NCBI GenBank assembly: GCA_964036045.1
Contig: OZ038385.1
Span: 23,466,353-23,530,352 of the forward strand
Source: Eutreptiella sp. 'Long Island Sound 2002'
Taxonomy: Eukaryota > Euglenozoa > Euglenophyceae > Eutreptiales > Eutreptiaceae
Reading direction: 5' to 3'
DNA: 64,000 bases
Below, in pieces: positions 15,381-47,679 of this stretch (the first letter of the stretch is position 1; every line of letters starts with the position of its first letter). A program made the position numbers and the translations under genes. The notes beneath the pieces were generated by a model. That model was not told the origin of the DNA and did not search any database. It saw nothing but the letters and a program-made list of their open reading frames with translations.

Positions 15381-15484
15381 TGTCGGGGGGGGGGGGGGGA
15401 TGGACGATTTCTCTTTGGCGCGGCCCAACACCGAAGAGGGTGCCTCACAGGGTGCCCAATCCTACAAGACGTACATTTCGTCAC

Positions 15485-20134: not shown

Positions 20135-20330
20135 AATGTGGTGTGCCGTGACATTTGCATGCCACTGTGGTAGGCGGATGCAACGAACGAAATGTCCAAT
20201 GACGCCTGCACAAAATCAACCTCCAACTACAAGGCAACCACCATCAGACATGTGCTACAGCCCCCAACCAAAAAAAGGAGCATTCAACTCCATGGTGCCA
20301 AAAAGTGCAGCAACCGCGTCCTCACGTTTG
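20135..20330 (+). repeat. Diverged outlier of the macrosatellite
   Basis: Shares tgtggtaggcggatgcaac, aatcaacctccaactacaagg and caactccatggtgcca, in this order, with every macrosatellite unit, but with many substitutions and indels. It stands 1.1 kb left of the array in the same orientation. An inverted counterpart lies at 44,385-44,515. Confidence 0.7.
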
Positions 20331-20579: not shown

Positions 20580-20829
20580 TCACCATTTGGAGGAACCTCT
20601 GTGCATGGTTGTCACAGTACCTCCCTTTTTAGTATTCCCACGTTGAGAGGAGGTGTTCTGAGACCTGTGATCATTCTTGTCTCCATGAGAGGTTCTCCCT
20701 AGGTATTTACGAAAATGTTTCTGCATATGCGAATCGTTCTCGCATTCCAACGCCAGCTCGATGAGCAACTCCACTAGGTCCTCATAGTCATGTGTCCCGG
20801 ATTCCCTTTCAGGGTTAGACTTGCAATCT
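20580..20829 (-). pseudogene. Gag fragment of a retroelement
   Basis: The minus-strand frame reads DYEDLVELLIELALECENDS, matching in order and spacing the segment YEDLSVLLLELVLEMESDQH of the Gag-like ORF at 63.6 kb. A polar, Lys/Arg/Ser-rich tail follows up to TGA at 20,582-20,580, where the other copy has its linker before the zinc knuckle. Only this C-terminal part of the Gag core is present; an upstream TAA closes the frame. A remnant of the same element family is the simplest reading. Confidence 0.5.
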
Positions 20830-21581: not shown

Positions 21582-21647
21582 CAGGCAACAGTGCCGCGGC
21601 ACTTGACGGCGATGGTGATGCTAATGGGGCTGCTGATGCTGACGCAC
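21582..21647 (-). CDS. Exon B1 (linker, 66 bp)
   Basis: Last exon B in the transcription direction. Acceptor and GTATG donor are intact, phase 1-1. Confidence 0.4.
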
Positions 21648-24600
21648 CTGTACATGGCACAAAATGAACACATCTGGCGAAATACAGCAACAGATGATCA
21701 CGGCACTGATGCAATGACAAAGCGGCGCAATGAAAGGTTGCCCTGTGAGGTAAACATGCGCACCACACATAGCACCGTGCACACCGCCCACCTGTTCTTC
21801 ATTGCTACTTTACGCATTTTAGGGCAGATTTTTAGGGTGGCAGGTACACAGTGGTCTAAATGGGGTAAGCATACAACAACGGAGGCCTCCACTCTACCTC
21901 CTACGCAATGTCATGGTGGTTGTAGCCGCCCACACCACCTGCCAGGGGAGGGCTATTGAGGGCACGGCAAAGAGAGTGCCACAGCCCAAGCCTGTGAGGC
22001 AGTCGTTTCGTCATGCTTTATGGTTCAGATCCAGTGTCCCCACATGATATGACCCCTTATGCCCCCATTTGGCAGCAAATCCAGTGCCCCCACGTGACAA
22101 CACCCCTGATGCCCCCACATGGCGGCAAATGCAGTGCCCCCACATTACTCTGTCTTGCCCGATCCGGCGCCTCCCAAGGTGAAAATGCATAAGATGGCCC
22201 CTTGGAGTCAACCACCACCCTAGTTTGGGGTCTCCCTGCTGGATTGCCCATTTCCCCTCCCCTTGTCCGAATTGTGAGGGGAAATTATAGCTCTTCTGGC
22301 CTGACTACCAGCTAATCTACAGCTGCTTGGTCAGGCTGGACGGCTAAATCTCCGTGCCGCGTCAGGGGCTCCCCCAACAACCCCTGATGCCCCCAGTTGG
22401 CAGCAAATCCAGTGCCCACACATCATAACACCTGATGTTGGCTTGCTCACCGCTACCATGCCAACACCATTTGAAGCATTGCTCTAAATCCCACAGGGCG
22501 CTACCCTGAACGCGTTCGTTCGCTTCGTTTTGTGTTTTGAGAATCTCATGCCACAGGTCCAAAGATAACGGGCAGAAAATGCACATTTTCGATCCCCCCT
22601 GCCCTCCTACAAGCTGTACTTATGCTTGTGCGAGAGTGGTACTTTCGACCCGCTAAACCGGAGAAAAGGGCACCCATGAAAAACCCAAGCACCCCGTTGA
22701 ACGCCTGCACATTTCCTTCTAGAATTGCGTACCTGTGAGCCCATGGGCCGTGTTGTGCAGGATGAGTGCATCAACGAAGCTCGTGCCCTTGTGCAAGTCG
22801 TTGTGCACTCCACGGGCTTGATGCAGGCTAAAACTACTTGTTTGAGCATCCCAAGTGGTTTAGGAACAACTTTGGAAAAAAATCTTTTTTTCGCCCCGTG
22901 GGTGATGCTAGACCCACCGCTGGCCCCGACCATGTGGGGGCCGGGCTGCCCTCTAGCTCCACCAAGTGACCACTGGTACGCGGGTGTAGGCGTCTCATTG
23001 GGCCATTTTGAGGGTTGGAACCACCTTCTCTTCAGTAATCCATTTCTTTTACAGTGCCAAATAGGCGGACACATAAACTTGCTGTAATATTGGCTGAGTC
23101 CCTTCAATTCATGGCCACACAGAGTCCTTTGTGCTTTGTGCTTGGTGGACTTTGTGTCCCACCATAAAGGTTGTCATGGCAATCGTACACATTGCAATAG
23201 AGGCAATATCCACAAGTTGCAAAAAAAATTGGACTCGCCATTCAGTTAAAAAAATTTACTCCCAATACGAATATTTTTGGGTGTTCCGATTTTTACATGC
23301 CCTCACAGCCAAGAAAAATTACTCACACCAACGATTTTTTTGTATGAGTTACATTTTTCACGTTCCTTAAGGATACCCACACCCCTCTTTTTTTTTTCCT
23401 GACAAGAAACATGCACGCCCCAGGCTGGTGGCTCACGTCAACTGCTGGCAATTATTGGCCACTCGTCAACTGCTGGCAGTTATTGGCCACTCGCTGTGAG
23501 TCAACTGCCAACCGCTGGCGGTTACTGTCCAGTTTGTCGGTTAACCACCAACAGCACATGGCTGTTGACTGCCAGCCGCCACCGGTTGACTAGCCTACTG
23601 CTGTCAGTGGACAGCCCTTTGACGCTGGACGTCCAGATTTCTTCTGTTTTTTTTTTCCAACCAAGGAAAGTCCTGGGTCCAACATGACCGTGTGGCATGG
23701 ATAAAGGTGGTTGGAGAGGCATGCTTCAGCTACTTCCTGCTTGTTTGCTGCAGGTGTACCCCCCTGGCATGGACACACCTGGTTTCGAAGTGGAGAATAA
23801 GACGAAACCCGGTGAGACCAAGGCGATTGAGGAAGGCGAGACCACACACAAGCCCGAGGCCTGTGCTGCGGCCACTTTCAAGGCCATTTGCAAAAATGCA
23901 TATCACATCACATGTGGCGATTTCAACCTTGGCATGTTGGCCCGCGTGGCTGCAGGGATGTCGCCGCGGAGCAGCACCCTGGTTGACATGTTCTTGTGTC
24001 CTCTTCTGGTGTGTGCCTTCTCAGTGGGCCTGCCAAGTTGCATAGTCCAGTTGCTGAAGTCGTGAATTGGAATGTCGGAAGTTCAACGGAGACTGTGTTG
24101 TCATCGCGTGCAGGGCACGTACGCTCTCCTGGTGCATGTGCGGACCTACTTGCAGCACTCCAAGAAGTCCCGGGTTGGAGGCGCAACATGCCAGGGGCAT
24201 GCGGGTCTCGGGTTTACACTGTTCTCAGTGTTGGGCGGGGGGGTGGCATTAGATGCCCTCAGCAAACGTTGTGGCAATTTCTCTGATCCAGCGCTTGCCT
24301 GCCGCACAAACGTCTTGGACGGCATTGTATTGATCCCCTGCTGCCGCCCTCCCTGCGCGGGAAAACACGCCAAACGAGACCCTGTGACTTCGCTGTCATA
24401 GGACATGAAGCCTGATCGGGAGGCCCCAAGTCCAAATCCAAAGTGAGTCATGACGCTGAGCCGTCCTAAGCCGTTTCATTGCTGAACCCACGAGCCAGAA
24501 GGGACTAATAATGGTTCCGGTGGATTTCCCCCGGGTGCTATACCTCGACCTCTACCGTGGCGGGACAGCAGTTTTCCACCCGCCCAACGTCCATGAGGGT

Positions 24601-27600
24601 GGGCTGACTGCACAAGAACTTGGGCTGAGCACTCCAGCTGGCTGTTTTCCCTCAAACACAGGTGTAGCCAACGAAGGTTCGCCTCATCAAGACAGGCAGA
24701 GGGACCTTCCTTGGCACACCAGATATCTGGCCCACTCGGGGCCCCTGGTGTACTGCTGTGCGTCACAACCAACACTGTGCATATAAACAGCAATGGCCCG
24801 GTGCCTCAAACGACACAGGCATGCAGGCATACCAGGCAATGGTGTAGCGTGGCTTGATGGCGATGATGACGCCAATGGGACGGATGATGGTGATGCCGAT
24901 GTAGCATTGCATGGGGAGCAGGCCCAAAACAGATCAGGGTGCTGTGAGCTTTGTTGGGCATCTGGGCAAGCTCCCTCAGCAACATAACACCAGCCACCAG
25001 ACCCGCGACAGTCATTGTCCCATTCACCACAAGTGCCCCCATATCCGCCTCCAATGGATGCACCATTGCATTGGCATTGATGTGGGGCTGCGCTGGGGCT
25101 CCCTACAGCAGATAATGTGTGTGGACAATGGTCAGAGCAGCGCTTGGGTCGGGCCTTTTGCCGTCCAAAGACATCCATTCAGCCCCTTTCAGATTCAGCC
25201 CCACGCAGTGAACTGTTCGCCCTTGATTGAGGGAACACAACATGGGGTGTCGCGCTGTGCCAGCGCCCACAAAGTGCCAAACACACACCGTGGGGCAGGA
25301 ATGTGTGCCACTATGGTAGGCGGATGCAACAAACGAAATGTCCATGATGCAAAAAATAAACCTCCAACTACAAGGCAACCACCATACACAAGTCTGCTAC
25401 AAATGGTGATGCTAATGGGGCTGCTGATGCTGACGCACCTGTTTATGGCACAAAATGAACACATCTGGCGAAATACAGCAACAGATGATCACAGCACTGA
25501 CGCAACGACAGATCACGGCACTGATGCAATGACAAAGCGGCGCAATGAAAGGTTGCCCTGCGAGGTAAACATGCGCACCACACATAGCACCGTGCACACT
25601 GCACATCTGTTCGTCATTGCTACTTTACGCATTTTTTGGAAGATTTTTAGGGTGGCAGGTACACGGTGGTCTAAATGGGGTAAGCATACAACAACGGAGG
25701 CCTCCACTCTACCTCCTACACAATGTCATGGTGGTTGTAGCCGCCCACACCACCTGCCAGGGGAGGGCTATTGAGGGCACGGCAAAGAGAGTGCCACAGC
25801 CCAAGCCTGTGAGGCAGTCGTTTCGTCATGCTTTATGGTTCAGATCCAGTGTCCCCACATGATATTACCCCTTATGCCCCCATATGGCGGCAAATCCAGT
25901 GCCCCCACATTACAACACCCTCGATGCTCCCATTTGGCAGCAAATCTAGTGCCCCCATGTGACAACGGGGGAGTATCTGCGCCGCGCGCTACTTGTGTGG
26001 CGTGATTACCCGGAGTGGGTTGGCTTTTACCCCATCACAAAATGCCCCCCTAAGGAGAGCAAACCCTTGGGTACAAGACCTCGGTAAACATCCCTCTGTC
26101 TTGCCCGATCCGGCGCCTCCCAAGGTGAAAATGCATAAGATGGCCCCTTGGAGTCAACCACCACTCTAGTTTGGGGTCTCCCTGCTGGATTGCCCATTTC
26201 CCCTCCCCTTGTCCGAATAGTGAGGGGAAATTATAGCTCTTCTGGCCTGACTACCAGCTAATCTACAGCTGCTTGGTCAGGCTGGACGGCTAAATCTCCG
26301 TGCCGCGTCAGGTGCTCCCCCAACACCCCTGATGCCCCCAGTTGGCAGCAAATCCAGTGCCCACACATCACAACACCGGAAGTTCGCTTGCTCACCGCCA
26401 CCATGCCAACACCATGTTTGAAGTATTACTCTAAATCCCACAGGGCGCTACTCTGAACGCGTTCGTTCGCTTCGTTTTGTGTTTTGAGAATCTCATGCCA
26501 CAGGTCCAAAGATAACGGGCAGAAAATGCACATTTTCGATCCCCCCTGCCCTCCTACAAGCTGTACTTATGCTTGTGCGAGAGTGGTACTTTCGACCCGC
26601 TAAACCGGAGAAAAGGGCACCCATGAAAAATCCAAGTACCCCGTTGAACGCCTGCACATTTCCTTCTAGAATTGCGTACCTGTGAGCCCATGGGCCGTGT
26701 TGTGCAGGATGAGTGCATCAGCGAAGCTCGTGCCCTTGTGCAAGTCGTTGTGCAACTGACTCCACAACGACACAGGATGTGTGCCTGGTGTACTGCTGTG
26801 CGTCACAACCAACACTGTGCATATAAACAGCAATGGCCCGGTGCCTCAAATGACACAGGCATGCAGTCATACCAGGCAATGGTGTAGCGTGGCTTGATGG
26901 CGATGATGACGCCAATGGGACGGATGATGGTGATGCCGATGCCAATGTAGCATTACATGGGGAACAGGCCCAAAACAGATCAGGGTGCTGTGAGCTTTGT
27001 TGGGCATCTGGGCAAGCTCCCTCAGCAACATAACACCAGCCACCAGACCCGCGACAGTCATTGTCCCATTCACCACAAGTGCCCCCATATCCGCCTCCAA
27101 TGGATGCACCATTGCATTGGCATTGATGTGGGGCTGCGCTGGGGCTCCCTACAGCAGATAATGTGTGTGGACAATGGTCAGAGCAGAGGGCGAACAGTTC
27201 ACTGAGCGGGGCTGAATCTGAAAGGGGCTGAATGGATGTCTTTGGACGGCAAAAGGCCCGACCCAAGCGTGATTAAGGCAACACAACATGCGGTAACGCG
27301 CTGTGCCAGCGCCCACAAAGTGCCAAACACACACTGTGGTGCATGTATGTGTGCCACTATGGTAGGCGGATGCAACAGACAAACTGTTCAAAAATGTTGC
27401 AAAAAATCAACCTCCAACTACAAGGCAACCACCATACACACGTGTGCTACAACACCTCGACCATCAACTCCATGGTGCCAAACGGTGCAGTAGCAGCGCC
27501 TCGTGTGCCTTGAGCAAGCTGCGGCTTGGGGAAATGGGGCAAAAGCTGTCCATCACTACCAACACTCGACGTACAAACAGCAACAGTGCGGTACCCTAAA

Positions 27601-30600
27601 TGATCCTGGCATGCGGTCATACCAGGCAACAGTGCCGCGGCACTTGACGGCAATGGTGATGCTAATGGGGCTGCTGATGCTGACGCACCTGTACATGGCA
27701 CAAAATGAACACATCTGGCGAAATACAGCAACAGATGATCACGGCACTGATGCAATGACAAAGCGGCGCAATGAAAGGTTGCCCTGCGAGGTAAACATGC
27801 GCACCACACATAGCACCGTGCACACTGCACACCTGTTCGTCATTGCTACTTTACGCATTTTTTGGAAGATTTTTAGGGTGGCAGGTACACGGTGGTCTAA
27901 ATGGGGTAAGCATACAACAACGGAGGCCTCCACTCTACCTCCTACACAATGTCATGGTGGTTGTAGCCGCCCACACCACCTGCCAGGGGAGGGCTATTGA
28001 GGGCACGGCAAAGAGAGTGCCACAGCCCAAGCCTGTGAGGCAGTCGTTTCGTCATGCTTTATGCTTCATGCTTTCAGATCCAGTGTCCCCACATGACATG
28101 ACCCCTTATGCCCCCATTTGGCAGCAAATCCAGTGCCCCCACGTGGCAACACCCCTGATGCCCCCATATGGCGGCAAATCCAGTGCCCCCACATTACAAC
28201 ACCCTCGATGCTCCCATTTGGCAGCAAATCTAGTGCCCCCATGTGACAACGGGGGAGTATCTGCGCCGCGCGCTACTTGTGTGGCGTGATTACCCGGAAT
28301 GGGTTGGTTTTTACCCCATCACAAAATGCCCCCTAAGGAGAGCAAACCCTTGGGTACAAGACCTCGGTAAACATCCCTCTGTCTTGCTGGATCCGGCGCC
28401 TCCCAAGGTGAAAATGCATAAGATGGCCCCTTGGAGTCAACCACCACCCTAGTTTGGGGTCTCCCTGCTGGATTGTCCATTTTCCCTCCCCTTGTCCGAA
28501 TAGTGAGGGGAAATTATAGCTCTTCTGGCCTGACTACCAGCTAATCTACAGCTGCTTGGTCAGGCTGGACGGCTAAATCTCCGTGCCGCGTCAGGTGCTC
28601 CCCCAACACCCCTGATGCCCCCAGTTGGCAGCAAATCCAGTGCCCACACATGACAACACCGGAAGTTCGCTTGCTCACCGCTACCATGCCAACACCATGT
28701 TTGAAGCATTGCTCTAAATCCCACAGGGCGCTACCCTGAACGCGTTCGTTCGCTTCGTTTTGTGTTTTGAGAATCTCATGCCACAGGTCCAAAGATAACG
28801 GGCAGAAAATGCACATTTTCGATCCCCCCTGCCCTCCTACAAGCTGTACTTATGCTTGTGCGAGAGTGGTACTTTCGACCCGCTAAACCGGAGAAAAGGG
28901 CACCCATGAAAAATCCAAGTACCCCGTTGAACGCCTGCACATTTCCTTCTAGAATTGCGTGCCTGTGAGCCCATGGGCCGTGTTGTGCAGGATGAGTGCA
29001 TCAGCGAAGCTCGTGCCCTTGTGCAAGTCGTTGTGCAACTGACTCCACAACGACACAGGATGTGTGCCTGGTGTACTGCTGTGCGTCACAACCAACACTG
29101 TGCATATAAACAGCAATGGCCCGGTGCCTCAAATGACACAGGCATGCAGTCATACCAGGCAATGGTGTAGCGTGGCTTGATGGCGATGATGACGCCAATG
29201 GGACGGATGATGGTGATGCCGATGCCAATGTAGCATTGCATGGGGAACAGGCCCAAAACAGATCAGGGTGCTGTGAGCTTTGTTGGGCATCTGGGCAAGC
29301 TCCCTCAGCAACATAACACCAGCCACCAGACCCGCGACAGTCATTGTCCCATTCACCACAAGTGCCCCCATATCCGCCTCCAATGGATGCACCATTGCAT
29401 TGGCATTGATGTGGGCCTGCGCTGGGGCTCCCTACAGCAGATAATGTGTGTGGACAATGGTCAGAGCAGAGGGCGAACAGTTCACTGAGTGGGGCTGAAT
29501 CTGAAAGGGGCTGAATGGATGTCTTTGGACGGCAAAAGGCCCGACCCAAGCGTGATTAAGGCAACACAACATGGGGTAACGCGCTGTGCCAGCGCCCACA
29601 AAGTGCCAAACACACACTGTGGTGCATGTATGTGTGCCACTATGGTAGGCGGATGCAACAGACGAAATGTCCAATGATGCAAAAAATCAACCTCCAACTA
29701 CAAGGCAACCACCATACACACGTGTGCTACAACACCTCGACCATCAACTCCATGGTGCCAAACGGTGCAGTAGCAGCGCCTCGTGTGCCTTGAGCAAGCT
29801 GCGGCTTGGGAAAATGGGGCAAAAGCTGTCCATCACTACCAACACTCGACGTACAAACAGCAACAGTGCGGTACCCTAAATGACCCTGGCATGCGGTCAT
29901 ACCAGGCAACAGTGCCGCGGCACTTGACGGCAATGGTGATGCTAATGGGGCTGCTGATGCTGACGCACCTGTACATGGCACAAAATGAACACATCTGGCG
30001 AAATACAGCAACAGATGATCACGGCACTGATGCAATGACAAAGCGGCGCAATGAAAGGTTGCCCTGCGAGGTAAACATGCGCACCACACATAACACCGTG
30101 CACACCGCCCACCTGTTCGTCATTGCTACTTTACGCATTTTTTGGAAGATTTTTAGGGTGGCAGGTACACGGTGGTCTAAATGGGGTAAGCATACAACAA
30201 CGAAGGCCTCCACTCTACCTCCTAAGCAATGTCATGGTGGTTGTAGCCGCCCACACCACCTGCCAGGGGGGGGCTATTGAGGGCACGGCAAAGAGAGTGC
30301 CACAGCCCAAGCCTGTGAGGCAGTCGTTTCGTTATGCTTTATGCTTCATGCTTTCAGATCCAGTGTTCCCACATGATATGACCCCTTATGCCCCCATTTG
30401 GCAGCAAATCCAGTGCCCCCACGTGACAACACCCCTGATGCCCCCATATGGCGGCAAATCCAGTGCCCCCACATTACAACACCCTCGATGCTCCCATTTG
30501 GCAGCAAATCTAGTGCCCCCCATGTGACAACGGGGGAGTATCTGCGCCGCGCGCTACTTGTGTGGCGTGATTACCCGGAGTGGGTTGGCTTTTACCCCAT

Positions 30601-33600
30601 CACAAAATGCCCCCTAAGGAGAGCAAACCCTTGGGTACAAGACCTCGGTAAACATCCCTCTGTCTTGCCCGATCCGGCGCCTCCCAAGGTGAAAATGCAT
30701 AAGATGGCCCCTTGGAGTCAACCACCACCCTAGTTTGGGGTCTCCCTGCTGGATTGCCCATTTTCCCTCCCCTTGTCTGAATAGTGAGGGGAAATTATAG
30801 CTCTTCTGGCCTGACTACCAGCTAATCTACAGCTGCTTGGTCAGGCTGGACGGCTAAATCTCCGTGCCGCGTCAGGTGCTCCCCCAACACCCCTGATGCC
30901 CCCAGTTGGCAGCAAATCCAGTGCCCACACATCACAACACCGGAAGTTCGCTTGCTCACCGCTACCATGCCAACACCATGTTTGAAGCATTGCTCTAAAT
31001 CCCACAGGGCGCTACCCTGAACGCGTTCGTTCGCTTCGTTTTGTGTTTTGAGAATCTCATGCCACAGGTCCAAAGATAACGGGCAGAAAATGCACATTTT
31101 CGATCCCCCCTGCCCTCCTACAAGCTGTACTTATGCTTGTGCGAGAGTGGTACTTTCGACCCGCTAAACCGGAGAAAAGACACCCATGAAAAATCCAAGT
31201 ACCCCGTTGAACGCCTGCACATTTCCTTCTAGAATTGCGTGCCTGTGAGCCCATGGGCCGTGTTGTGCAGGATGAGTGCATCAGCGAAGCTCGTGCCCTT
31301 GTGCAAGTCGTTGTGCAACTGACTCCACAACGACACAGGATGTGTGCCCGGTGTACTGCTGTGCGTCACAACCAACACTGTGCATATAAACAGCAATGGC
31401 CCGGTGCCTCAAATGACACAGGCATGCAGTCATACCAGGCAATGGTGTAGCGTGGCTTGATGGCGATGATGACGCCAATGGGACGGATGATGGTGATGCC
31501 GATGCCAATGTAGCATTGCATGGGGAACAGGCCCAAAACAGATCAGGGTGCTGTGAGCTTTGTTGGGCATCTGGGCAAGCTCCCTCAGCAACATAACACC
31601 AGCCACCAGACCCGCGACAGTCATTGTCCCATTCACCACAAGTGCCCCCATATCCGCCTCCAATGGATGCACCATTGCATTGGCATTGATGTGGGGCTGC
31701 GCTGGGGCTCCCTACAGCAGATAATGTGTGTGGACAATGGTCAGAGCAGAGGGCGAACAGTTCACTGAGCGGGGCTGAATCTGAAAGGGGCTGAATGGAT
31801 GTCTTTGGACGGCAAAAGGCCCGATCCAAGCGTGATTAAGGCAACACAACATGGGGTAACGCGCTGTGCCAGCGCCCACAAAGTGCCAAACACACACTGT
31901 GGTGCATGTATGTGTGCCACTATGGTAGGCGGATGCAACAGACGAAATGTCCAATGATGCAAAAAATCAACCTCCAACTACAAGGCAACCACCATACACA
32001 CGTGTGCTACAACACCTCGACCATCAACTCCATGGTGCCAAACGGTGCAGTAGCAGCGCCTCGTGTGCCTTGAGCAAGCTGCGGCTTGGGAAAATGGGGC
32101 AAAAGCTGTCCATCACTACCAACACTCGACGTACAAACAGCAACAGTGCGGTACCCTAAATGACCCTGGCATGCGGTCATACCAGGCAACAGTGCCGCGG
32201 CACTTGACGGCGATGGTGATGCTAATGGGGCTGCTGATGCTGACGCACCTGTACATGGCACAAAATGAACACATCTGGCGAAATACAGCAACAGATGATC
32301 ACGGCACTGATGCAATGACAAAGCGGCGCAATGAAAGGTTGCCCTGTGAGGTAAACATGCGCACCACACATAACACCGTGCACACCGCCCACCTGTTCGT
32401 CATTGCTACTTTACGCATTTTTTGGAAGATTTTTAGGGTGGCAGGTACACGGTGGTCTAAATGGGGTAAGCATACAACAACGAAGGCCTCCACTCTACCT
32501 CCTAAGCAATGTCATGGTGGTTGTAGCCGCCCACACCACCTGCCAGGGGAGGGCTATTGAGGGCACGGCAAAGAGAGTGCCACAGCCCAAGCCTGTGAGG
32601 CAGTCGTTTCGTCATGCTTTATGCTTCATGCTTTCAGATCCAGAGTCCCCACATGACATGACCCCTTATGCCCCCATTTGGCAGCAAATCCAGTGCCCCC
32701 ACGTGACAACACCCCTGATGCCCCCATATGGCGGCAAATCCAGTGCCCCCACATTACAACACCCTCGATGCTCCCATTTGGCAGCAAATCTAGTGCCCCC
32801 CATGTGACAACGGGGGAGTATCTGCGCCGCGCGCTACTTGTGTGGCGTGATTACCCGGAGTGGGTTGGCTTTTACCCCATCACAAAATGCCCCCTAAGGA
32901 GAGCAAACCCTTGGGTACAAGACCTCGGTAAACATCCCTCTGTCTTGCCCGATCCGGCGCCTCCCAAGGTGAAAATGCATAAGATGGCCCCTTGGAGTCA
33001 ACCACCACTCTAGTTTGGGGTCTCCCTGCTGGATTGTCCATTTTCCCTCCCCTTGTCCGAATAGTGAGGGGAAATTATAGCTCTTCTGGCCTGACTACCA
33101 GCTAATCTACAGCTGCTTGGTCAGGCTGGACGGCTAAATCTCCGTGCCGCGTCAGGTGCTCCCCCAACACCCCTGATGCCCCCAGTTGGCAGCAAATCCA
33201 GTGCCCACACATCACAACACCGGAAGTTCGCTTGCTCACCGCTACCATGCCAACACCATGTTTGAAGTATTACTCTAAATCCCACAGGGCGCTACCCTGA
33301 ACGCGTTCGTTCGCTTCGTTTTGTGTTTTGAGAACCTCATGCCACAGGTCCAAAGATAACGGGCAGAAAATGCACATTTTCGATCCCCCCTGCCCTCCTA
33401 CAAGCTGTACTTATGCTTGTGCGAGAGTGGTACTTTCGACCCGGAGAAAAGGGCACCCATGAAAAATCCAAGTACCCCGTTGAACGCCTGCACATTTCCT
33501 TCTAGAATTGCGTACCTGTGAGCCCATGGGCCGTGTTGTGCAGGATGAGTGCATCAGCGAAGCTCGTGCCCTTGTGCAAATCGTTGTGCAACTGACTCCA

Positions 33601-36600
33601 CAAAGACACAGGATGTGTGCCTGGTGTACTGCTGTGCGTCACAACCAACACTGTGCATATAAACAGCAATGGCCCGGTGCCTCAAATGACACAGGCATGC
33701 AGGCATACCAGGCAATGGTGTAGCGTGGCTTGATGGCGATGATGACGCCAATGGGACGGATGATGGTGATGCCGATGTAGCATTACATGGGGAACAGGCC
33801 CAAAACAGATCAGGGTGCTGTGAGCTTTGTTGGGCATCTGGGCAAGCTCCCTCAGCAACATAACACCAGCCACCAGACCCGCGACAGTCATTGTCCCATT
33901 CACCACAAGTGCCCCCATATCCGCCTCCAATGGATGCACCATTGCACTGGCATTGATGTGGGGCTGCGCTGGGGCTCCCTACAGCAGATAATGTGTGTGG
34001 ACAATGGTCAGAGCAGAGGGCGAACAGTTCACTGAGTGGGGCTGAATCTGAAAGGGGCTGAATGGATGTCTTTGGACGGCAAAAGGCCCGACCCAAGCGT
34101 GATTCAGGCAACACAACCTGGGGTGTTGCGCTGTGTATGTGTGCCACTATGGTAGGCGGATGCAACAGACGAAATGTCCAATGATGCAAAAAATCAACCT
34201 CCAACTACAAGGCAACCACCATACACATGTGTGCTACAACACCTCGACCATCAACTCCATGGTGCCAAACGGTGCAGTAGCAGCGCCTCGTGTGCCTTGA
34301 GCAAGCTGCGGCTTGGGAAAATGGGGCAAAAGCTGTCCATCACTACCAACACTCGACGTACAAACAGCAACAGTGCGGTACCCTAAATGACCCTGGCATG
34401 CGGTCATACCAGGCAACAGTGCCGCGGCACTTGACGGCGATGGTGATGCTAATGGGGCTGCTGATGCTGACGCACCTGTACATGGCACAAAATGAACACA
34501 TCTGGCGAAATACAGCAACAGATGATCACGGCACTGATGCAATGACAAAGCGGCGCAATGAAAGGTTGCCCTGCGAGGTAAACATGCGCACCACACATAG
34601 CACCGTGCACACTGCACACCTGTTCGTCATTGCTACTTTACGCATTTTTTGGAAGATTTTTAGGGTGGCAGGTACACGGTGGTCTAAATGGGGTAAGCAT
34701 ACAACAACGGAGGCCTCCACTCTACCTCCTAAGCAATGTCATGGTGGTTGTAGCCGCCCACACCACCTGCCAGGGGGGGGCTATTGAGGGCACGGCAAAG
34801 AGAGTGCCACAGCCCAAGCCTGCGAGGCAGTCGTTTCGTCATGTTTTATGCTTCATGCTTTCAGATCCAGTGTCCCCACATGACATGACCCCTTATGCCC
34901 CCATTTGGCAGCAAATCCAGTGCCCCCACGTGACAACACCCCTGATGCCCCCATATGGCGGCAAATCCAGTGCCCCCACATTACAACACCCTCGATGCTC
35001 CCATTTGGCAGCAAATCTAGTGCCCCCCATGTGACAACGGGGGAGTATCTGCGCCGCGCGCTACTTTTGTGGCGTGATTACCCGGAGTGGGTTGGCTTTT
35101 ACCCCATCACAAAATGCCCCCCTAGAGCAAACCCTTGGGTACAAGACCTCGGTAAACATCCCTCTGTCTTGCCCGATCCGGCGCCTCCCAAGGTGAAAAT
35201 GCATAAGATGGCCCCTTGGAGTCAACCACCACCCTAGTTTGGGGTCTCCCTGCTGGATTGTCCATTTTCCCTCCCCTTGTCCGAATAGTGAGGGGAAATT
35301 ATAGCTCTTCTGGCCTGACTACCAGCTAATCTACAGCTGCTTGGTCAGGCTGGACGGCTAAATCTCCGTGCCGCGTCAGGTGCTCCCCCAACACCCCTGA
35401 TGCCCCCAGTTGGCAGCAAATCCAGTGCCCACACATCACAACACCGGAAGTTCGCTTGCTCACCGCTACCATGCCAACACCATGTTTGAAGTATTACTCT
35501 AAATCCCACAGGGCGCTACCCTGAACGCGTTCGTTCGCTTCGTTTTGTGTTTTGAGAACCTCATGCCACAGGTCCAAAGATAACGGGCAGAAAATGCACA
35601 TTTTCGATCCCCCCTGCCCTCCTACAAGCTGTACTTATGCTTGTGCGAGAGTGGTACTTTCGACCCGCTAAACCAGAGGAATCTGAACGCCTGCACATTT
35701 CCTTCTAGGATTGCGTACCTGTGAGCCCATGGGCCGTGTTGTGCAGGATGAGTGCATCAGCGAAGCTCGTGCCCTTGTGCAAGTCGTTGTGCAACTGACT
35801 CCACAACGACACAGGATGTGTGCCTGGTGTACTGCTGTGCGTCACAACCAACACTGTGCATATAAACAGCAATGGCCCGGTGCCTCAAATGACACAGGCA
35901 TGCAGTCATACCAGGCAATGGTGTAGCGTGGCTTGATGGCGATGATGATGCCAATGGGACGGATGATGGTGATGCCGATGCCAATGTAGCATTGCATGGG
36001 GAACAGGCCCAAAACAGATCAGGGTGCTGTGAGCTTTGTTGGGCATCTGGGCAAGCTCCCTCAGCAACATAACACCAGCCACCAGACCCGCGACAGTCAT
36101 TGTCCCATTCACCACAAGTGCCCCCATATCCGCCTCCAATGGATGCACCATTGCATTGGCATTGATGTGGGCCTGCGCTGGGGCTCCCTACAGCAGATAA
36201 TGTGTGTGGACAATGGTCAGAGCAGAGGGCGAACAGTTCACTGAGTGGGGCTGAATCTGAAAGGGGCTGAATGGATGTCTTTGGACGGCAAAAGGCCCGA
36301 TCCAAGCGTGATTAAGGCAACACAACATGGGGTAACGCGCTGTGCCAGCGCCCACAAAGTGCCAAACACACACTGTGGTGCATGTATGTGTGCCACTATG
36401 GTAGGCGGATGCAACAAACGGAATGTCCAATGATGCAAAAAATCAACCTCCAACTACAAGGCAACCACCATACACATGTGTGCTACAACACCTCGACCAT
36501 CAACTCCATGGTGCCAAACGGTGCAGTAGCAGCGCCTCGTGTGCCTTGAGCAAGCTGCGGCTTGGGAAAATGGGGCAAAAGCTGTCCATCACTACCAACA

Positions 36601-39600
36601 CTCAACGTACAAACAGCAACAGTGCGGTACCCTAAATGACCCTGGCATGCGGTCATACCAGGCAACAGTGCCGCGGCACTTGACGGCGATGGTGATGCTA
36701 ATGGGGCTGCTGATGCTGACGCACCTGTACATGGCACAAAATGAACACATCTGGCGAAATACAGCAACAGATGGTCACGGCACTGATGCAATGACAAAGC
36801 GGCGCAATGAAAGGTTGCCCTGCGAGGTAAACATGCGCACCACACATAACACCGTGCACACCGCCCACCTGTTCGTCATTGCTATTTTACGCATTTTTTG
36901 GAAGATTTTTAGGGTGGCAGGTACACGGTGGTCTAAATGGGGTAAGCATACAACAACGGAGGCCTCCACTCTACCTCCTACACAATGTCATGGTGGTTGT
37001 AGCCGCCCACACCACCTGCCAGGGGGGGGCTATTGAGGGAACGGCAAAGAGAGTGCCACCGCCCAAGCCTGTGAGGCAGTCGTTTCGTCATGCTTTATGC
37101 TTCAGATCCAGAGTCCCCACATGACATGACCCCTTATGCCCCCATTTGGCAGCAAATCCAGTGCCCCCACGTGACAACACCCCTGATGCCCCCATATGGC
37201 GGCAAATCCAGTGCCCCCACATTACAACACCCTCGATGCTCCCATTTGGCAGCAAATCTAGTGCCCCCATGTGACAACGGGGGAGTATCTGCGCCGCGCG
37301 CTACTTGTGTGGCGTGATTACCCGGAGTGGGTTGGCTTTTACCCCATCACAAAATGCCCCCCTAGAGCAAACCCTTGGGTACAAGACCTCGGTAAACATC
37401 CCTCTGTCTTGCTGGATCCAGCGCCTCCCAAGGTGAAAATGCATAAGATGGCCCCTTGGAGTCAACCACCACCCTAGTTTGGGGTCTCCCTGCTGGATTG
37501 CCCATTTCCCCTCCCCTTGTCCGAATAGTGAGGGGAAATTATAGCTCTTCTGGCCTGACTACCAGCTAATCTACAGCTGCTTGGTCAGGCTGGACGGCTA
37601 AATCTCCGTGCCGCGTCAGGTGCTCCCCCAACACCCCTGATGCCCCCAGTTGGCAGCAAATCCAGTGCCCACACATGACAACACCGGAAGTTCGCTTGCT
37701 CACCGCTACCATGCCAACACCATGTTTGAAGTATTGCTCTAAATCCCACAGGGCGCTACCCTGAACGCGTTCGTTCGCTTCGTTTTGTGTTTTGAGAATC
37801 TCATGCCACAGGTCCAAAGATAACGGGCAGAAAATGCACATTTTCGATCCCCCCTGCCCTCCTACAAGCTGTACTTATGCTTGTGCGAGAGTGGTACTTT
37901 CGACCCGCTAAACCGGAGAAAAGGGCACCCATGAAAAATCCAAGTACCCCGTTGAACGCCTGCACATTTCCTTCTAGAATTGCGTGCCTGTGAGCCCATG
38001 GGCCGTGTTGTGCAGGATGAGTGCATCAGCGAAGCTCGTGCCCTTGTGCAAGTCGTTGTGCAACTGACTCCACAACGACACAGGATGTGTGCCTGGTGTA
38101 CTGCTGTGCGTCACAACCAACACTGTGCATATAAACAGCAATGGCCCGGTGCCTCAAACGACACAGGTATGCAGGCATACCAGGCAATGGTGTAGCGTGG
38201 CTTGATGGCGATGATGATGCCAATGGGACGGATGATGGTGATGGTGATGCCAATGTAGCATTGCATGGGGAACAGGCCCAAAACAGATCAGGGTGCTGTG
38301 AGCTTTGTTGGGCATCTGGGCAAGCTCCCTCAGCAACATAACACCAGCCACCAGACCCGCGACAGTCATTGTCCCATTCACCACAAGTGCCCCCATATCC
38401 GCCTCCAATGGATGCACCATTGCATTGGCATTGATGTGGGCCTGCGCTGGGGCTCCCTACAGCAGATAATGTGTGTGGACAATGGTCAGAGCAGAGGGCG
38501 AACAGTTCACTGAGTGGGGCTGAATCTGAAAGGGGCTGAATGGATGTCTTTGGACGGCAAAAGGCCCGATCCAAGCGTGATTAAGGCAACACAACATGGG
38601 GTAACGCGCTGTGCCAGCGCCCACAAAGTGCCAAACACACACTGTGGTGCATGTATGTGTGCCACTATGGTAGGCGGATGCAACAAACGGAATGTCCAAT
38701 GATGCAAAAAATCAACCTCCAACTACAAGGCAACCACCATACACATGTGTGCTACAACACCTCGACCATCAACTCCATGGTGCCAAACGGTGCAGTAGCA
38801 GCGCCTCGTGTGCCTTGAGCAAGCTGCGGCTTGGGAAAATGGGGCAAAAGCTGTCCATCACTACCAACACTCAACGTACAAACAGCAACAGTGCGGTACC
38901 CTAAATGACCCTGGCATGCGGTCATACCAGGCAACAGTGCCGCGGCACTTGACGGCGATGGTGATGCTAATGGGGCTGCTGATGCTGACGCACCTGTACA
39001 TGGCACAAAATGAACACATCTGGCGAAATACAGCAACAGATGGTCACGGCACTGATGCAATGACAAAGCGGCGCAATGAAAGGTTGCCCTGCGAGGTAAA
39101 CATGCGCACCACACATAACACCGTGCACACCGCCCACCTGTTCGTCATTGCTATTTTACGCATTTTTTGGAAGATTTTTAGGGTGGCAGGTACACGGTGG
39201 TCTAAATGGGGTAAGCATACAACAACGGAGGCCTCCACTCTACCTCCTACACAATGTCATGGTGGTTGTAGCCGCCCACACCACCTGCCAGGGGGGGGCT
39301 ATTGAGGGAACGGCAAAGAGAGTGCCACCGCCCAAGCCTGTGAGGCAGTCGTTTCGTCATGCTTTATGCTTCAGATCCAGAGTCCCCACATGACATGACC
39401 CCTTATGCCCCCATTTGGCAGCAAATCCAGTGCCCCCACGTGACAACACCCCTGATGCCCCCATATGGCGGCAAATCCAGTGCCCCCACATTACAACACC
39501 CTCGATGCTCCCATTTGGCAGCAAATCTAGTGCCCCCATGTGACAACGGGGGAGTATCTGCGCCGCGCGCTACTTGTGTGGCGTGATTACCCGGAGTGGG

Positions 39601-42600
39601 TTGGCTTTTACCCCATCACAAAATGCCCCCCTAGAGCAAACCCTTGGGTACAAGACCTCGGTAAACATCCCTCTGTCTTGCTGGATCCAGCGCCTCCCAA
39701 GGTGAAAATGCATAAGATGGCCCCTTGGAGTCAACCACCACCCTAGTTTGGGGTCTCCCTGCTGGATTGCCCATTTCCCCTCCCCTTGTCCGAATAGTGA
39801 GGGGAAATTATAGCTCTTCTGGCCTGACTACCAGCTAATCTACAGCTGCTTGGTCAGGCTGGACGGCTAAATCTCCGTGCCGCGTCAGGTGCTCCCCCAA
39901 CACCCCTGATGCCCCCAGTTGGCAGCAAATCCAGTGCCCACACATGACAACACCGGAAGTTCGCTTGCTCACCGCTACCATGCCAACACCATGTTTGAAG
40001 TATTGCTCTAAATCCCACAGGGCGCTACCCTGAACGCGTTCGTTCGCTTCGTTTTGTGTTTTGAGAATCTCATGCCACAGGTCCAAAGATAACGGGCAGA
40101 AAATGCACATTTTCGATCCCCCCTGCCCTCCTACAAGCTGTACTTATGCTTGTGCGAGAGTGGTACTTTCGACCCGCTAAACCGGAGAAAAGGGCACCCA
40201 TGAAAAATCCAAGTACCCCGTTGAACGCCTGCACATTTCCTTCTAGAATTGCGTGCCTGTGAGCCCATGGGCCGTGTTGTGCAGGATGAGTGCATCAGCG
40301 AAGCTCGTGCCCTTGTGCAAGTCGTTGTGCAACTGACTCCACAACGACACAGGATGTGTGCCTGGTGTACTGCTGTGCGTCACAACCAACACTGTGCATA
40401 TAAACAGCAATGGCCCGGTGCCTCAAACGACACAGGTATGCAGGCATACCAGGCAATGGTGTAGCGTGGCTTGATGGCGATGATGATGCCAATGGGACGG
40501 ATGATGGTGATGGTGATGCCAATGTAGCATTGCATGGGGAACAGGCCCAAAACAGATCAGGGTGCTGTGAGCTTTGTTGGGCATCTGGGCAAGCTCCCTC
40601 AGCAACATAACACCAGCCACCAGACCCGCGACAGTCATTGTCCCATTCACCACAAGTGCCCCCATATCCGCCTCCAATGGATGCACCATTGCATTGGCAT
40701 TGATGTGGGCCTGCGCTGGGGCTCCCTACAGCAGATAATGTGTGTGGACAATGGTCAGAGCAGAGGGCGAACAGTTCACTGAGTGGGGCTGAATCTGAAA
40801 GGGGCTGAATGGATGTCTTTGGACGGCAAAAGGCCCGACCCAAGCGTGATTAAGGCAACACAACATGGGGTGTCGCGCTGTGCCAGCGCCCACAAAGTGC
40901 CAAACACACACTGTGGTGCATGTATGTGTGCCACTATGGTAGGCGGATGCAACAAACGAAATGTCCAATGATGCAAAAAATCAACCTCCAACTACAAGGC
41001 AACCACCATACACACGTGTGCTACAACACCTCGACCATCAACTCCATGGTGCCAAACGGTGCAGTAGCAGCGCCTTGTGTGCCTTGAGCAAGCTGCGGCT
41101 TGGGAAAATGGGGCAAAAGCTGTCCATCACTACCAACACTCGACGTACAAACAGCAACAGTGCGGTACCCTAAATGACCCTGGCATGCGGTCATACCAGG
41201 CAACAGTGCCGCGGCACTTGACGGCGATGGTGATGCTAATGGGGCTGCTGATGCTGACGCACCTGTACATGGCACAAAATGAACACATCTGGCGAAATAC
41301 AGCAACAGATGATCACGGCACTGATGCAATGACAAAGCGGCGCAATGAAAGGTTGCCCTGCGAGGTAAACATGCGCACCACACATAGCACCGTGCACACT
41401 GCCCACCTGTTCGTCATTGCTACTTTACGCATTTTTTGGAAGATTTTTAGGGTGGCAGGTACACGGTGGTCTAAATGGGGTAAGCATACAACAACGGAGG
41501 CCTCCACTCTACCTCCTACACAATGTCATGGTGGTTGTAGCCGCCCACACCACCTGCCAGGGGAGGGATATTGAGGGAACGGCAAAGAGAGTGCCACCGC
41601 CCAAGCCTGTGAGGCAGTCGTTTCGTCATGCTTTATGCTTCATGCTTTCAGATCCAGTGTCCCCACATGACATGACCCCTTATGCCCCCATTTGGCAGCA
41701 AATCCGGTGCCCCCATGTGACAACACCCCTTATGCCCCCATATGGCGGCAAATTCAGTGCCTCCACATTACAACACCCTCGATGCTCCCATTTGGCAGCA
41801 AATCTAGTGCCCCCATGTGACAACGGGGGAGTATCTGCGCCGCGGGCTACTTTTGTGGCGTGATTACCCGGAATGGGTTGGCTTTTACCCCATCACAAAA
41901 TGCCCCCTAAGGAGAGCAAACCCTTGGGTACAAGACCTCGGTAAACATCCCTCTGTCTTGCTGGATCCGGCGCCTCCCAAGGTGAAAATGCATAAGATGG
42001 CCCCTTGGAGTCAACCACCACCCTAGTTTGGGGTCTCCCTGCTGGATTGCCCATTTTCCCTCCCCTTGTCCGAATAGTGAGGGGAAATTATAGCTCTTCT
42101 GGCCTGACTACCAGCTAATCTACAGCTGCTTGGTCAGGCTGGACGGCTAAATCTCCATGCCGCGTCAGGTGCTCCCCCAACACCCCTGATGCCCCCAGTT
42201 GGCAGCAAATCCAGTGCCCACACATCACAACACCGGAAGTTCGCTTGCTCACCATGTTTGAAGCATTGCTCTAAATCCCAAAGGGTGCTACCCTGAACGC
42301 GTTCGTTCGCTTCGTTTTGTGTTTTGAGAATCTCATGCCACAGGTCCAAAGATAACGGGCAGAAAATGCACATTTTCGATCCCCCCTGCCCTCCTACAAG
42401 CTGTACTTATGCTTGTGCGAGAGTGGTACTTTCGACCCGCTAAACCGGAGAAAAGGGCACCCATGAAAAATCCAAGTACCCCGTTGAACGCCTGCACATT
42501 TCCTTCTAGGATTGCGTACCTGTGAGCCCATGGTCCGTGTTGTGCAGGATGAGTGCATCAGCGAAGCTCGTGTCCTTGTGCAAGTCGTTGTGCAACTGAC

Positions 42601-43342
42601 TCCACAACGACACAGGATGTGTCCCCGGTGTACTGCTGTGCGTCACAACCAACACTGTGCATATAAACAGCAATGGCCCGGTGCCTCAAATGACACAGGT
42701 ATGCAGGCATACCAGGGACTGGTGTAGCGTGGCTTGATGGCGATGACGATGCAAATGGGACGGATGATGGTGATGCCGATGCCAATGTAGCATTGCATGG
42801 GGAACAGGCCCAAAACAGATCAGGGTGCTGTGAGCTTTGTTGGGCATCTGGGCAAGCTCCCTCAGCAACATAACACCAGCCACCAGACCCGCGACAGTCA
42901 TTGTCCCATTCACCACAAGTGCCCCCATATCCGCCTCCAATGGATGCACCATTGCATTGGCATTGATGTGGGCCTGCGCTGGGGCTCCCTACAGCAGATA
43001 ATGTGTATGGACAATGGTCAGAGCAGGGCGAACAGTTCACTGAGCGGGGCTGAATCTGAAAGGGGCTGAATGCACGTCTTGTCCCGACCCAAGCGTGATT
43101 AAGGCAACACAACATGGGGTGTCGCGCTGTGCCAGCGTCCACAAAGTGCCAAACACACACTGTGGTGCATGTATGTGTGCCACTATGGTAGGCGGATGCA
43201 ACAAACGAAATGTCCAACGATGCTTGTACAAGGTCAACAGTGCGGTACCCTAAATGACCCTGACATGCAGTCATACCAGTAAACAGCGCCGCAGCATTTG
43301 ATGTTGATGGTGATGCTATTGGGGCTGCTGATGCTGACGCAC
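21582..43342 (-). CDS. Predicted multi-exon gene: repeated Cys-rich extracellular domain
   Basis: In transcription order (minus strand) exons alternate B10-A9-B9-A8 and so on to B1. Exon A starts after a conserved acceptor (attatctgctgtag) and stops before GCCTG|GTATG. It encodes CQCNG, GGYGGTCGEWDNDC, GGWCYV, ACPDA and FWACSPC (eight cysteines), then a linker rich in Ser, Pro and Ala ending PLPG. Exon B starts after gtgccatgtacag and gives only a linker (GASASAAPLASPSPSS and on, ending LLPG). All nine A copies and nine of ten B copies keep both splice sites. All borders are phase 1, so any order of A and B exons splices in frame. The Cys core is invariant among copies; protein changes fall mainly in the linkers. 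Small secreted or surface domains with a CxCNG...WCYV pattern are common in algal and protist proteins. Even cysteine number and Ser/Pro linkers suggest an extracellular, perhaps glycosylated, filament or wall protein. First and last exons are not identified. Alternatives: separate tandem genes, or a satellite descended from a coding exon. Confidence 0.5.
22015..22150 (+). repeat. 50-bp subrepeats, shortened set in the first unit
   Basis: Units built on tgatgcccccatatggcggcaaatccagtgcccccacattacaac. Full units carry three in tandem plus an outlier about 380 bp further on (for example 28,090-28,250 and 28,612-28,655). In this unit about 240 bp are missing from the last subrepeat to the phrase ctctgtcttgcccgatccgg. 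Confidence 0.75.
23420..23620 (+). repeat. Diverged about 30-bp minisatellite
   Basis: Copies of gtcaactgctggcaattattggccactc, first clear (23,438 and 23,466), then degraded and partly inverted (gttgactgcc, ggttgactag). Similar GTTGACC phrases occur at 12.5, 14.7 and 18.5 kb. Confidence 0.6.
23754..24065 (+). CDS. Candidate exon with GDFN motif (endonuclease/phosphatase-like?)
   Basis: A strong acceptor (cttcctgcttgtttgctgcag) precedes VYPPGMDTPGFEVENKTKPG, a Glu/Lys-rich stretch, then AICKNAYHITCGDFNLGMLA, and an open frame to TGA at 24,063-24,065. GDFN is the hallmark motif of the endonuclease/exonuclease/phosphatase fold, also used by non-LTR retroelements. Here it follows a hydrophobic strand as expected, but no other motif of the fold can be placed. 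The rest of the gene is not found. Confidence 0.3.
   Translation: MYPPGMDTPGFEVENKTKPGETKAIEEGETTHKPEACAAATFKAICKNAYHITCGDFNLGMLARVAAGMSPRSSTLVDMFLCPLLVCAFSVGLPSCIVQLLKS
24114..24401 (+). CDS. Candidate exon following the GDFN exon
   Basis: The acceptor tgttgtcatcgcgtgcag is followed by GTYALLVHVRTYLQHSKKSR and a Gly- and Cys-containing stretch, open to TAG at 24,399-24,401. It lies 50 bp after the GDFN candidate on the same strand, but the two cannot be joined without knowing a donor. Confidence 0.25.
   Translation, partial: GTYALLVHVRTYLQHSKKSRVGGATCQGHAGLGFTLFSVLGGGVALDALSKRCGNFSDPALACRTNVLDGIVLIPCCRPPCAGKHAKRDPVTSLS
24833..25102 (-). CDS. Exon A1 (Cys-rich domain, 270 bp)
   Basis: Two codons shorter than most copies in the linker (CNATSASPSS in place of CNATLASASPSS). 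Cys core and splice sites intact. Confidence 0.5.
25403..25438 (-). pseudogene. Exon B2, truncated
   Basis: The acceptor side remains, but about 250 bp of the unit, including the 3' half of the exon and its donor, are deleted. The sequence joins directly to ctacaag...tctgctaca. Confidence 0.5.
26873..27148 (-). CDS. Exon A2 (276 bp)
   Basis: Standard form with GSPSAAP at the start and LASASPSSVPLASSS in the linker. Both splice sites intact. One synonymous change (TGT for TGC) lies in the last cysteine codon of the domain. Confidence 0.5.
27623..27688 (-). CDS. Exon B3 (66 bp)
   Basis: One replacement in the linker (SPLPSS for SPSPSS). Splice sites intact. Confidence 0.4.
29156..29431 (-). 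CDS. Exon A3 (276 bp)
   Basis: GSPSAGP variant at the start; otherwise standard. Taken as the reference copy for exon borders: AG at 29,433-29,432, donor GT at 29,155-29,154. Confidence 0.5.
29903..29968 (-). CDS. Exon B4 (66 bp)
   Basis: Reference copy of exon B: acceptor AG at 29,970-29,969, donor GT at 29,902-29,901. The donor and about 70 bp of the following intron match those of exon A, so B arose from the 3' part of an A exon. Confidence 0.4.
30155..30340 (+). repeat. A-box repeat, macrosatellite form
   Basis: Typical of the copies in all units: gggtggcaggtacacggtgg, then an A-box match (TGGTCTAAATGG), acaacaacg.aggcctccac and cccaagcctgtgaggcagtcg. Other copies have the A-box near 21,852, 25,668, 27,892, 32,452, 34,679, 36,928, 39,197 and 41,466. 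It is absent from the final partial unit, where about 90 bp are deleted at 43,550. Confidence 0.6.
31436..31711 (-). CDS. Exon A4 (276 bp)
   Basis: Standard form, GSPSAAP start. Splice sites intact. Confidence 0.5.
32183..32248 (-). CDS. Exon B5 (66 bp)
   Basis: Standard linker; splice sites intact. Confidence 0.4.
33709..33978 (-). CDS. Exon A5 (270 bp)
   Basis: Same two-codon linker deletion as A1, plus a synonymous CAG for CAA in CQCNG. The surrounding unit has lost blocks on both sides (for example 34,120-34,135), but the exon frame is kept. Confidence 0.5.
34410..34475 (-). CDS. Exon B6 (66 bp)
   Basis: Standard linker; splice sites intact. Confidence 0.4.
35912..36187 (-). CDS. Exon A6 (276 bp)
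   Basis: GSPSAGP variant with one synonymous change in the Ser-rich linker (GCA for GCG). Splice sites intact. Confidence 0.5.
36659..36724 (-). CDS. Exon B7 (66 bp)
   Basis: Standard linker; splice sites intact. Confidence 0.4.
38181..38456 (-). CDS. Exon A7 (276 bp)
   Basis: LASPSPSS linker variant and GSPSAGP start. No difference from A8 was noticed. Confidence 0.5.
38928..38993 (-). CDS. Exon B8 (66 bp)
   Basis: Appears the same as B7, 2,269 bp away. Confidence 0.4.
40450..40725 (-). CDS. Exon A8 (276 bp)
   Basis: Same LASPSPSS variant as A7; it belongs to the recent 2,269-bp duplication. Confidence 0.5.
41197..41262 (-). CDS. Exon B9 (66 bp)
   Basis: Standard linker; splice sites intact. 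Confidence 0.4.
42713..42988 (-). CDS. Exon A9 (276 bp), most 5' A exon
   Basis: The most diverged A copy: VPFASSS and TPVPG in the linker. Cys core unchanged and the donor still GTATG. Its flanks differ more from other units than the exon does. Confidence 0.5.
43277..43342 (-). CDS. Exon B10 (66 bp), most 5' B exon
   Basis: Diverged linker (PIASPSTSNAAALFTG) with exact length and both splice sites kept, although the unit around it is heavily rearranged. Confidence 0.4.
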
Positions 43343-45510: not shown

Positions 45511-45694
45511 ATTGCACCACACCACACCACACCACACCACACCATACCACACCACACCACACCACACCACACCACACCACATCACACCACACCACACCAC
45601 ACCACACCACACCACACCACACCACACCACACCACACCACACCACACCACACCACACCACACCACACCACACCACACCACCCCACACCACACCC
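45511..45694 (+). repeat. (ACCAC)n microsatellite
   Basis: About 180 bp of near-perfect 5-base repeats. Thr/His/Pro and Val/Trp/Cys frames across it are artefacts. Confidence 0.95.
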
Positions 45695-47640: not shown

Positions 47641-47677
47641 CCCCCCCCCCCCCACGTCTTTCTTCATGCTCTCACAG
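47641..47677 (+). promoter_or_regulatory. Splice acceptor just before ORF1 of unit 1
   Basis: A C run, then cacgtctttcttcatgctctcacag, ends two bases before the ATG at 47,680. A strong 3' splice site with almost no leader behind it suits spliced-leader trans-splicing, as used by dinoflagellates, or a 5' leader intron. Confidence 0.4.
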
Positions 47678-47679
47678 AA

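Follow-up and report, generated by a model that had tools for sequence, protein, structure and literature searches.

The tandem array described here lies at positions 21582 to 43342 of a 64,000-nt window of the euglenid Eutreptiella sp. 'Long Island Sound 2002' (C8:23466353-23530352, where C8 is the contig holding the window and other C numbers denote other contigs of the same genome). Paraflagellar rod protein (PF05149), a mark of Euglenozoa, has 39 matches in this genome (best E 1.2e-105), against none in 14 control genomes. A dinoflagellate origin was rejected in view of these genes and of the window, which holds no spliced-leader match at up to 3 mismatches; a shorter leader core matched there four times, twice within a local tandem repeat. 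On the minus strand, it holds nine copies of a cysteine-rich exon (exon A) and nine intact copies of a short linker exon (exon B), together with one broken B and nine relics of a third exon, exon X. In ascending window order the A exons measure 270, 276, 276, 276, 270, 276, 276, 276 and 276 nt, the nine intact B exons measure 66 nt each, and 18 of 18 exons are preceded by AG, followed by GTATG and bounded in phase 1-1. A sequence-only reading of this stretch had described a macrosatellite that can be read as a giant gene, and its anatomy was confirmed: the exon A lengths, the nine B exons, the AG and GTATG bounds and the common phase all stand, while a tenth, broken B at 25438 (36 nt, donor lost), the deletion and inversion in the same unit and a ~1.9-kb insert separating the final A from the final B had been overlooked. 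The features, in the direction of the minus strand, are as follows.

21582..43342, minus strand: whole array, with nine copies each of exon A and intact exon B, a broken B and nine X relics
43277..43342, minus strand: exon B1, 66 nt, phase 1-1, the most diverged B
42713..42988, minus strand: exon A1, 276 nt, phase 1-1
41197..41262, minus strand: exon B2
40450..40725, minus strand: exon A2
38928..38993, minus strand: exon B3
38181..38456, minus strand: exon A3
36659..36724, minus strand: exon B4
35912..36187, minus strand: exon A4
34410..34475, minus strand: exon B5
33709..33978, minus strand: exon A5, 270 nt, shorter by two codons
32183..32248, minus strand: exon B6
31436..31711, minus strand: exon A6
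29903..29968, minus strand: exon B7, Ser to Leu variant
29156..29431, minus strand: exon A7
27623..27688, minus strand: exon B8, Ser to Leu variant
26873..27148, minus strand: exon A8
25403..25438, minus strand: exon B9 relic, only the first 36 of 66 nt, donor gone
25141..25223, minus strand: 83 nt of the unit in inverted orientation, lying between B9 and A9
24833..25102, minus strand: exon A9, 270 nt
22807..24743, strand not assigned: ~1.9 kb insert of other DNA following exon A9
21582..21647, minus strand: exon B10, final exon of the array; unit sequence stops near 21460 (by eye)

Units U1 to U8 measure 2263, 2269, 2269, 2209, 2267, 2280, 2283 and 2046 nt. Pairwise identity among the comparable units U1-U7 is 97.8-100%, U8 is 94-95% identical to the others, and U2 and U3 agree letter for letter over 2269 nt each. 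Among U1-U7, seven of nine intron gaps are not multiples of three and the sole exon gap is 6 nt, in agreement with the earlier observation that whole units vary by lengths that are not multiples of three and exons only by two codons. The B-to-A introns span 288-474 nt. From A to B the introns span 1436-1467 nt except in two places: A8 to A9 measures 1770 nt, as the intervening B is broken, and A9 to B10 measures 3185 nt owing to an insert of ~1.9 kb of other DNA, 216 nt of which are found again at 80% identity ~65 kb upstream, in L015. The unit with the B9 relic also has a ~200-nt deletion and the 83-nt inversion. The relic would have to be skipped in splicing, which would keep the frame because exon B is symmetric.

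A search of the DNA of the genome itself (2.28-Gb assembly, 2205 contigs, as in all own-genome searches below) gave at least 14 matches to exon A, namely the nine array copies, two broken copies on C8 ~60 kb upstream and three ~110-bp fragments. The fragments (nt 129-238 of exon A, ~80% identity, at L010, L011 and L012 on C2, C3 and C10) were rejected as exon copies; they sit in another repeat family with shared flanks. Where satellite DNA would form large arrays or occur at many loci, this is a single local array of 8-9 units, and the term macrosatellite overstates it. Two dispersed elements also touch the array: one of ~116 bp, SINE-like (short interspersed nuclear element) in size and 83-87% alike between copies, lies at 6418-6537, at 15280-15393 and once per unit in the A-to-B intron, and a second of ~100-130 bp lies at 20160-20274, at 44365-44494 and in array units, once inverted.

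Joined in silico in order, the exons encode 1,021 residues with no stops, and the other two frames hold 9 and 38 stops; near-identical repeats are not independent, so the stop-free frame counts as roughly one observation and not as nine. All 17 introns of this spliced model would run from GTATG to AG, and such predicted splicing has the GT/GC-AG ends that a study of Euglena gives for conventional introns, with a mean length of ~512 bp (PMC11170887). Exon A encodes an eight-cysteine (8-Cys) domain followed by a Ser/Ala/Pro-rich tail, exon B encodes a short linker of like kind, and the spliced product contains nine N-glycosylation sequons. A gap-free alignment pairs exon B and the first 78 nt of the intron after it with the tail of exon A and the intron next to it, 47 of 61 and 57 of 78 positions respectively being identical. 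Exon B is a linker exon of common descent with the tail of exon A. The predicted product would string eight-cysteine domains along Ser/Ala/Pro-rich linkers, and it is probably secreted or exposed at the cell surface, by analogy with its paralogues.

These paralogues came from a six-frame search of the genome with the exon A protein, which gave 25 matches at E <= 1: nine are the array, three are pieces of the two further C8 copies and the others lie in different open reading frames (ORFs); weak matches on C2, C3, C10 and C26 and a third on C4 were left uncounted. The C1 paralogue (330 residues) has two 8-Cys domains and SP-rich linkers, and with a signal peptide and a membrane segment, both recognised by eye, it resembles a type-I membrane protein. 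Those on C17 and C13 (428 and 399 residues) have one domain each and, by eye, a membrane segment. On C7 the domain belongs to a long ORF with subtilase (S8) and PA domains (Pfam 1.7e-31 and 9.3e-14), and on C5 to an ORF with WD40 repeats and then exon X, the linker running directly into X. On C4 it is apparently split between two places ~1.3 kb apart (E 0.0044 and 0.11; by eye). The C7 frame is 1979 residues long, 1059 of which were analysed, and at L037 (C7:84123868-84127044) the region that matches the subtilase profile includes the 8-Cys domain.

When nine sequences are aligned, six domains from paralogues and two copies from the array have all eight cysteines, and the upstream L009 copy, cut before its stop, shows six. 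The cysteines stand in a common context of GWC and W-x-C-x-x-C motifs, which the array shares with the family. Since all eight are found again in ORFs on C1, C5, C7, C13 and C17, exon A encodes a genuine domain of extracellular type, which supports the sequence-only reading. None of nine domain members matches Pfam at E 5, be it kringle, FN2 or another extracellular domain. A PDB sequence search with the domain gave no matches, and neither did Foldseek with a weak AlphaFold model (pLDDT, the predicted local distance difference test, 60.1); the two models, of pLDDT 47.6 and 60.1, are too weak for use. No bacterial, archaeal or viral relative of the domain was confirmed in IMG/VR, GTDB contigs or phages, the window repeats and one window ORF queried against IMG/VR gave no kin, and among the open-licence full texts listed by literature searches no title on the array or the domain turned up.

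The pattern of substitutions points to coding. The protein of the Cys core is identical in nine of nine copies, as had been claimed, with silent DNA differences at codons 10, 61 and 64. The nine A exons have 11 substituted sites, eight of them at third positions (P 0.009), a lean towards silent and third positions that supports the coding reading. Nine codons carry one change each, silent in six of them and a replacement in three, and a tenth codon, with two changes, encodes another residue. Within the Cys core there are three silent changes and no replacement over ~134 replacement sites (P 0.003 at the U1-U7 intron rate). In U1-U7 alone, seven of ten exon A variants are third-position, and among the unit's 276-nt windows and frames with at least eight variants, 0.5% reach a third-position share of 0.7. 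Furthermore, comparison of A3 with the two upstream copies gives silent shares of 7/10 (P 0.003) and 16/31 (P 0.0009), where 24% is expected. These silent and replacement tests treat all substitutions as equally frequent and the changes as independent of one another, and the core was delimited by its cysteines. The array, we conclude, coded under constraint until recently.

The two copies ~60 kb upstream, at L009, bear on the origin of the unit. In the minus-strand A copy a TGA replaces a core cysteine and the copy is cut off soon after; the plus-strand copy has lost 28 nt, contains a linker stop and has an altered donor. Before exon A, the inverted copy and the array agree at 35 of 39 positions over 40 nt and at only 67 of 91 over 110 nt. 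Directly before the minus-strand copy stand exon X and a B exon whose donor is GC. The order there is thus X-B-A, the phase is the same, and a short intron of ~109 nt separates X from B. Exon X has no Pfam match. It is found again at 65% identity in the C5 protein, and also on C15, C11 and C14 (two). In nine of nine array units, exon A is followed by an 85-nt piece from the 3' end of exon X, 84-86% identical to the L009 exon.

L009:5223-5411, minus strand: exon X, 62 codons, AG...GT borders, phase 1
42506..42590, minus strand: X relic (85 nt)
40243..40327, minus strand: X relic
37974..38058, minus strand: X relic
35705..35789, minus strand: X relic; 62-codon full-length X-like frame at 35902-35717 with one TGA
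33502..33586, minus strand: X relic
31229..31313, minus strand: X relic
28949..29033, minus strand: X relic
26666..26750, minus strand: X relic
22719..22803, minus strand: X relic past the insert

The eight undisturbed units have a 62-codon X-like frame without indels and with a TGA, and in the ninth unit, cut by the insert, only the start of this frame, with its TGA, stands beside exon A. Only the 85-nt part of X is beyond doubt, the 5' half being alike mainly at its first codons. The donor of the relic varies: of the eight units read, four have GT and four have GC. Since all nine units carry the relic and X-B-A stands upstream, the amplified unit most likely descends from an X-B-A arrangement, with X having decayed inside what would now be an intron.

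The reading that we favour, with some reserve, is tandem duplication of an exon pair inside a living euglenid gene for a secreted or cell-surface protein. The ancestor would have been a gene with the order X-B-A, still visible 60 kb upstream, and in the amplified unit X would have decayed and ended up within the A-to-B intron. B and A start and end in phase 1, so that any number of B-A pairs could join in frame, and the loss of a B, as happened once, would be tolerated. Unequal recombination or conversion would keep the units alike and change their number, each step adding or removing one cassette of ~114 residues with the frame kept. The identity of U2 and U3 is what recent turnover would leave, although an assembly error is possible.

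A number of observations weigh against a living gene. Copies of exon A elsewhere, in which stops or frameshifts would count against the coding reading, do carry them: both of those found outside the array on C8 are broken. Within U1-U7, exon A has 10 variable sites in 276 and the introns 80 in 1927, with pairwise values of 0.0135 and 0.0169, and exon A as a whole is therefore about as variable as the introns, evolving hardly slower. Exon B is without sign of selection, its sole U1-U7 variant being a replacement, and its agreement with the tail of A is barely better in the exon part than past the donor. A 161-nt invariant run was rejected as proof of selection (P 0.096), and so was the lack of frameshifts in the array, where 1.24 are expected and P(0) is 0.29, which makes it weak evidence; given the youth of the array copies, the fact that they are intact says little. 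An unrelated frame of 168 residues on the opposite strand, open in most units, has 1, 6 and 9 variants at codon positions 1, 2 and 3 (9 of 16 at the third), a caution against over-reading small numbers. The codon score per codon, from a table built on six other ORFs of the genome, is -0.33 for exon A and -0.31 for exon B against an open-window mean of -0.13, the other frames of exon A scoring -0.22 and -0.02 and exon X +0.19. The array donors GTATG also differ at position 3 from the Euglena donor consensus GTGTG given in the intron study (PMC11170887).

The ends of the gene are a further difficulty. No signal-peptide, transmembrane or terminal exon was found by similarity to the paralogues in ~150 kb around the array, where the tails of three paralogues reached a best E of 0.067 and the start of the C1 protein one of 0.57; exons without known relatives would be missed by such a search. 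At E 0.01 the parts of five paralogues outside the Cys domain, two of the five being used in part, matched only exon X, low-complexity sequence rich in proline and, at L017, a GC-rich ORF. Of possible unique exons of the same gene on either side, similarity gave only the X-B-A group 60 kb upstream, whose A is broken. No CxxC-plus-membrane segment lies on the 3' side on the minus strand. A last exon with a transmembrane segment, of the kind seen in the C1, C13 and C17 paralogues, was rejected: a scan at a limit of 1.6, which lies below the score of 1.83 of the C17 tail, gave only two overlapping matches at 95 kb on the 5' side. An EGF/GH43-like gene at L019 was also rejected as a continuation of the array, since its own signal-peptide start seems present (by eye). 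The giant gene of the sequence-only reading is upheld in part, by the domain, the silent lean and the upstream X-B-A in the same phase; its ends did not turn up in the ~150 kb searched by similarity, and its codon usage is unlike that of six other ORFs.

Much of this would also fit a dead gene cluster, in which the exons were real and selected until recently and the locus then lost its ends to become a young non-coding repeat. Under this explanation the broken outside copies, the broken B9, the decay of X with a stop in the X-like frame of nine of nine units, the failure of the similarity search to find a first or last exon, and codon usage unlike that of six other ORFs would all be expected, and zero frameshifts are compatible with neutrality. 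Against it stand the changes in the Cys core, still three silent to no replacement, and the intact borders of 18 of 18 exons. We regard a dead cluster as possible and clearly less probable than a living gene.

It is unlikely that each unit is instead a separate short gene ending in the run-on frame past exon A (ORFs of 163-319 residues). The frame is indeed open past the donor in nine of nine units, but beyond that point third positions are not favoured (variants at positions 1, 2 and 3 number 5, 2 and 1), and the run-on part overlaps the decayed X, read mostly in another frame. Moreover, seven of the nine ORFs (six of 184 residues, one of 216) lack a Met before the domain, a separate start exon not having been searched for. 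Less likely still, exon A would continue past GTATG, A and X having once been one exon and the border being a linker-X junction since turned into an intron. The X-like frame of the array begins 9 nt after the supposed donor and the linker runs straight into X in the C5 protein, as this explanation would have it; X in the array is, however, out of frame with A and has a stop, so that today it would have to be spliced out or else end the protein, and at the upstream locus X has the look of a separate exon preceding B. That the array is a non-coding satellite with open frames and splice-like borders by chance is barely credible: the open opposite-strand frame would agree with it, but the paralogues with the same eight cysteines in other architectures refute it for the domain, and the silent excess against the two diverged copies also speaks against it.

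A living gene with duplicated exon pairs would have parallels in animals. Animal extracellular modules on phase-1 exons include EGF, kringle, FN2 and the like, and the array resembles them in its symmetric 1-1 exon and in a Cys-rich domain occurring in several architectures. The array domain differs from them in having no Pfam or PDB match, and a domain-sized symmetric exon is seen only at the C8 locus, the paralogues on C1, C5, C7, C13 and C17 being long uninterrupted ORFs and that on C4 being apparently split. The exons of human LPA share one phase; the array exons likewise are of one symmetric phase, with the frame open across units. The KIV-2 repeat of LPA has ~5.5-kb tandem units that comprise two exons (160 and 182 bp) and two introns apiece, the first exons being 98-100% alike and the second exons 100% in the reference, and occurs in 1 to >40 copies that give a size-variable protein (PMC4378929). 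The array is alike in its near-identical tandem units of complete exons (one unit without a complete B). It differs in that domain and organism are unrelated, in its unit of 2.27 kb with one exon a linker and the other a whole domain, and in that KIV-2 has alleles of varied length and the array is known here from the sequence of one assembly. Within its own 8-Cys family, the array shares the eight cysteines and both motifs with members in membrane-like or secreted-like settings; those ORFs have one or two domains, whereas the array would have nine, on separate exons.

Other features lie around the array. On its 3' side, ~29 kb beyond it and on the same strand, L019:1778-2425 (minus) is an exon with a signal-like start and EGF-like and GH43-like parts, the GH43 match falling below the Pfam cut-off. 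L017:4295-5677 (minus) is a 461-residue ORF with several hydrophobic stretches, no Pfam match and codon usage like that of the genome's other ORFs. In the window, two long ORFs at 47589-48662 and 55176-56873 (plus) look mutually related by eye and have no Pfam match. Pieces at 20700-20800 (minus) and 62952-63692 (plus) look by eye like the gag part of what we take to be a copia-type retroelement. Repeats comprise a direct repeat of ~1.14 kb, 96% identical (1025-2163 and 2213-3346), a tandem repeat with a 411-bp unit in 2.5 copies (9608-10675) and an array of the pentamer CACCA in ~36 copies (45515-45693).

We tentatively suggest that, in the gene of a euglenid surface protein, a symmetric phase-1 two-exon cassette open to free gain and loss by recombination arose as the X of an X-linker-Cys repeat decayed into intron, and that variation in domain number through an exon array would then be independent in Euglenozoa; that two extracellular domains without a Pfam match, 8-Cys and X, were involved in this is an equally guarded proposal. 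The array also points to two euglenid domain families without a Pfam match. If the locus is dead, it shows how long a tandem array keeps intact exons and resembles a gene. If it is expressed, the domain number of a protein would be set by the satellite-like turnover of an exon pair, far from animals, and the array would show a route by which a decayed domain ends as an intron.

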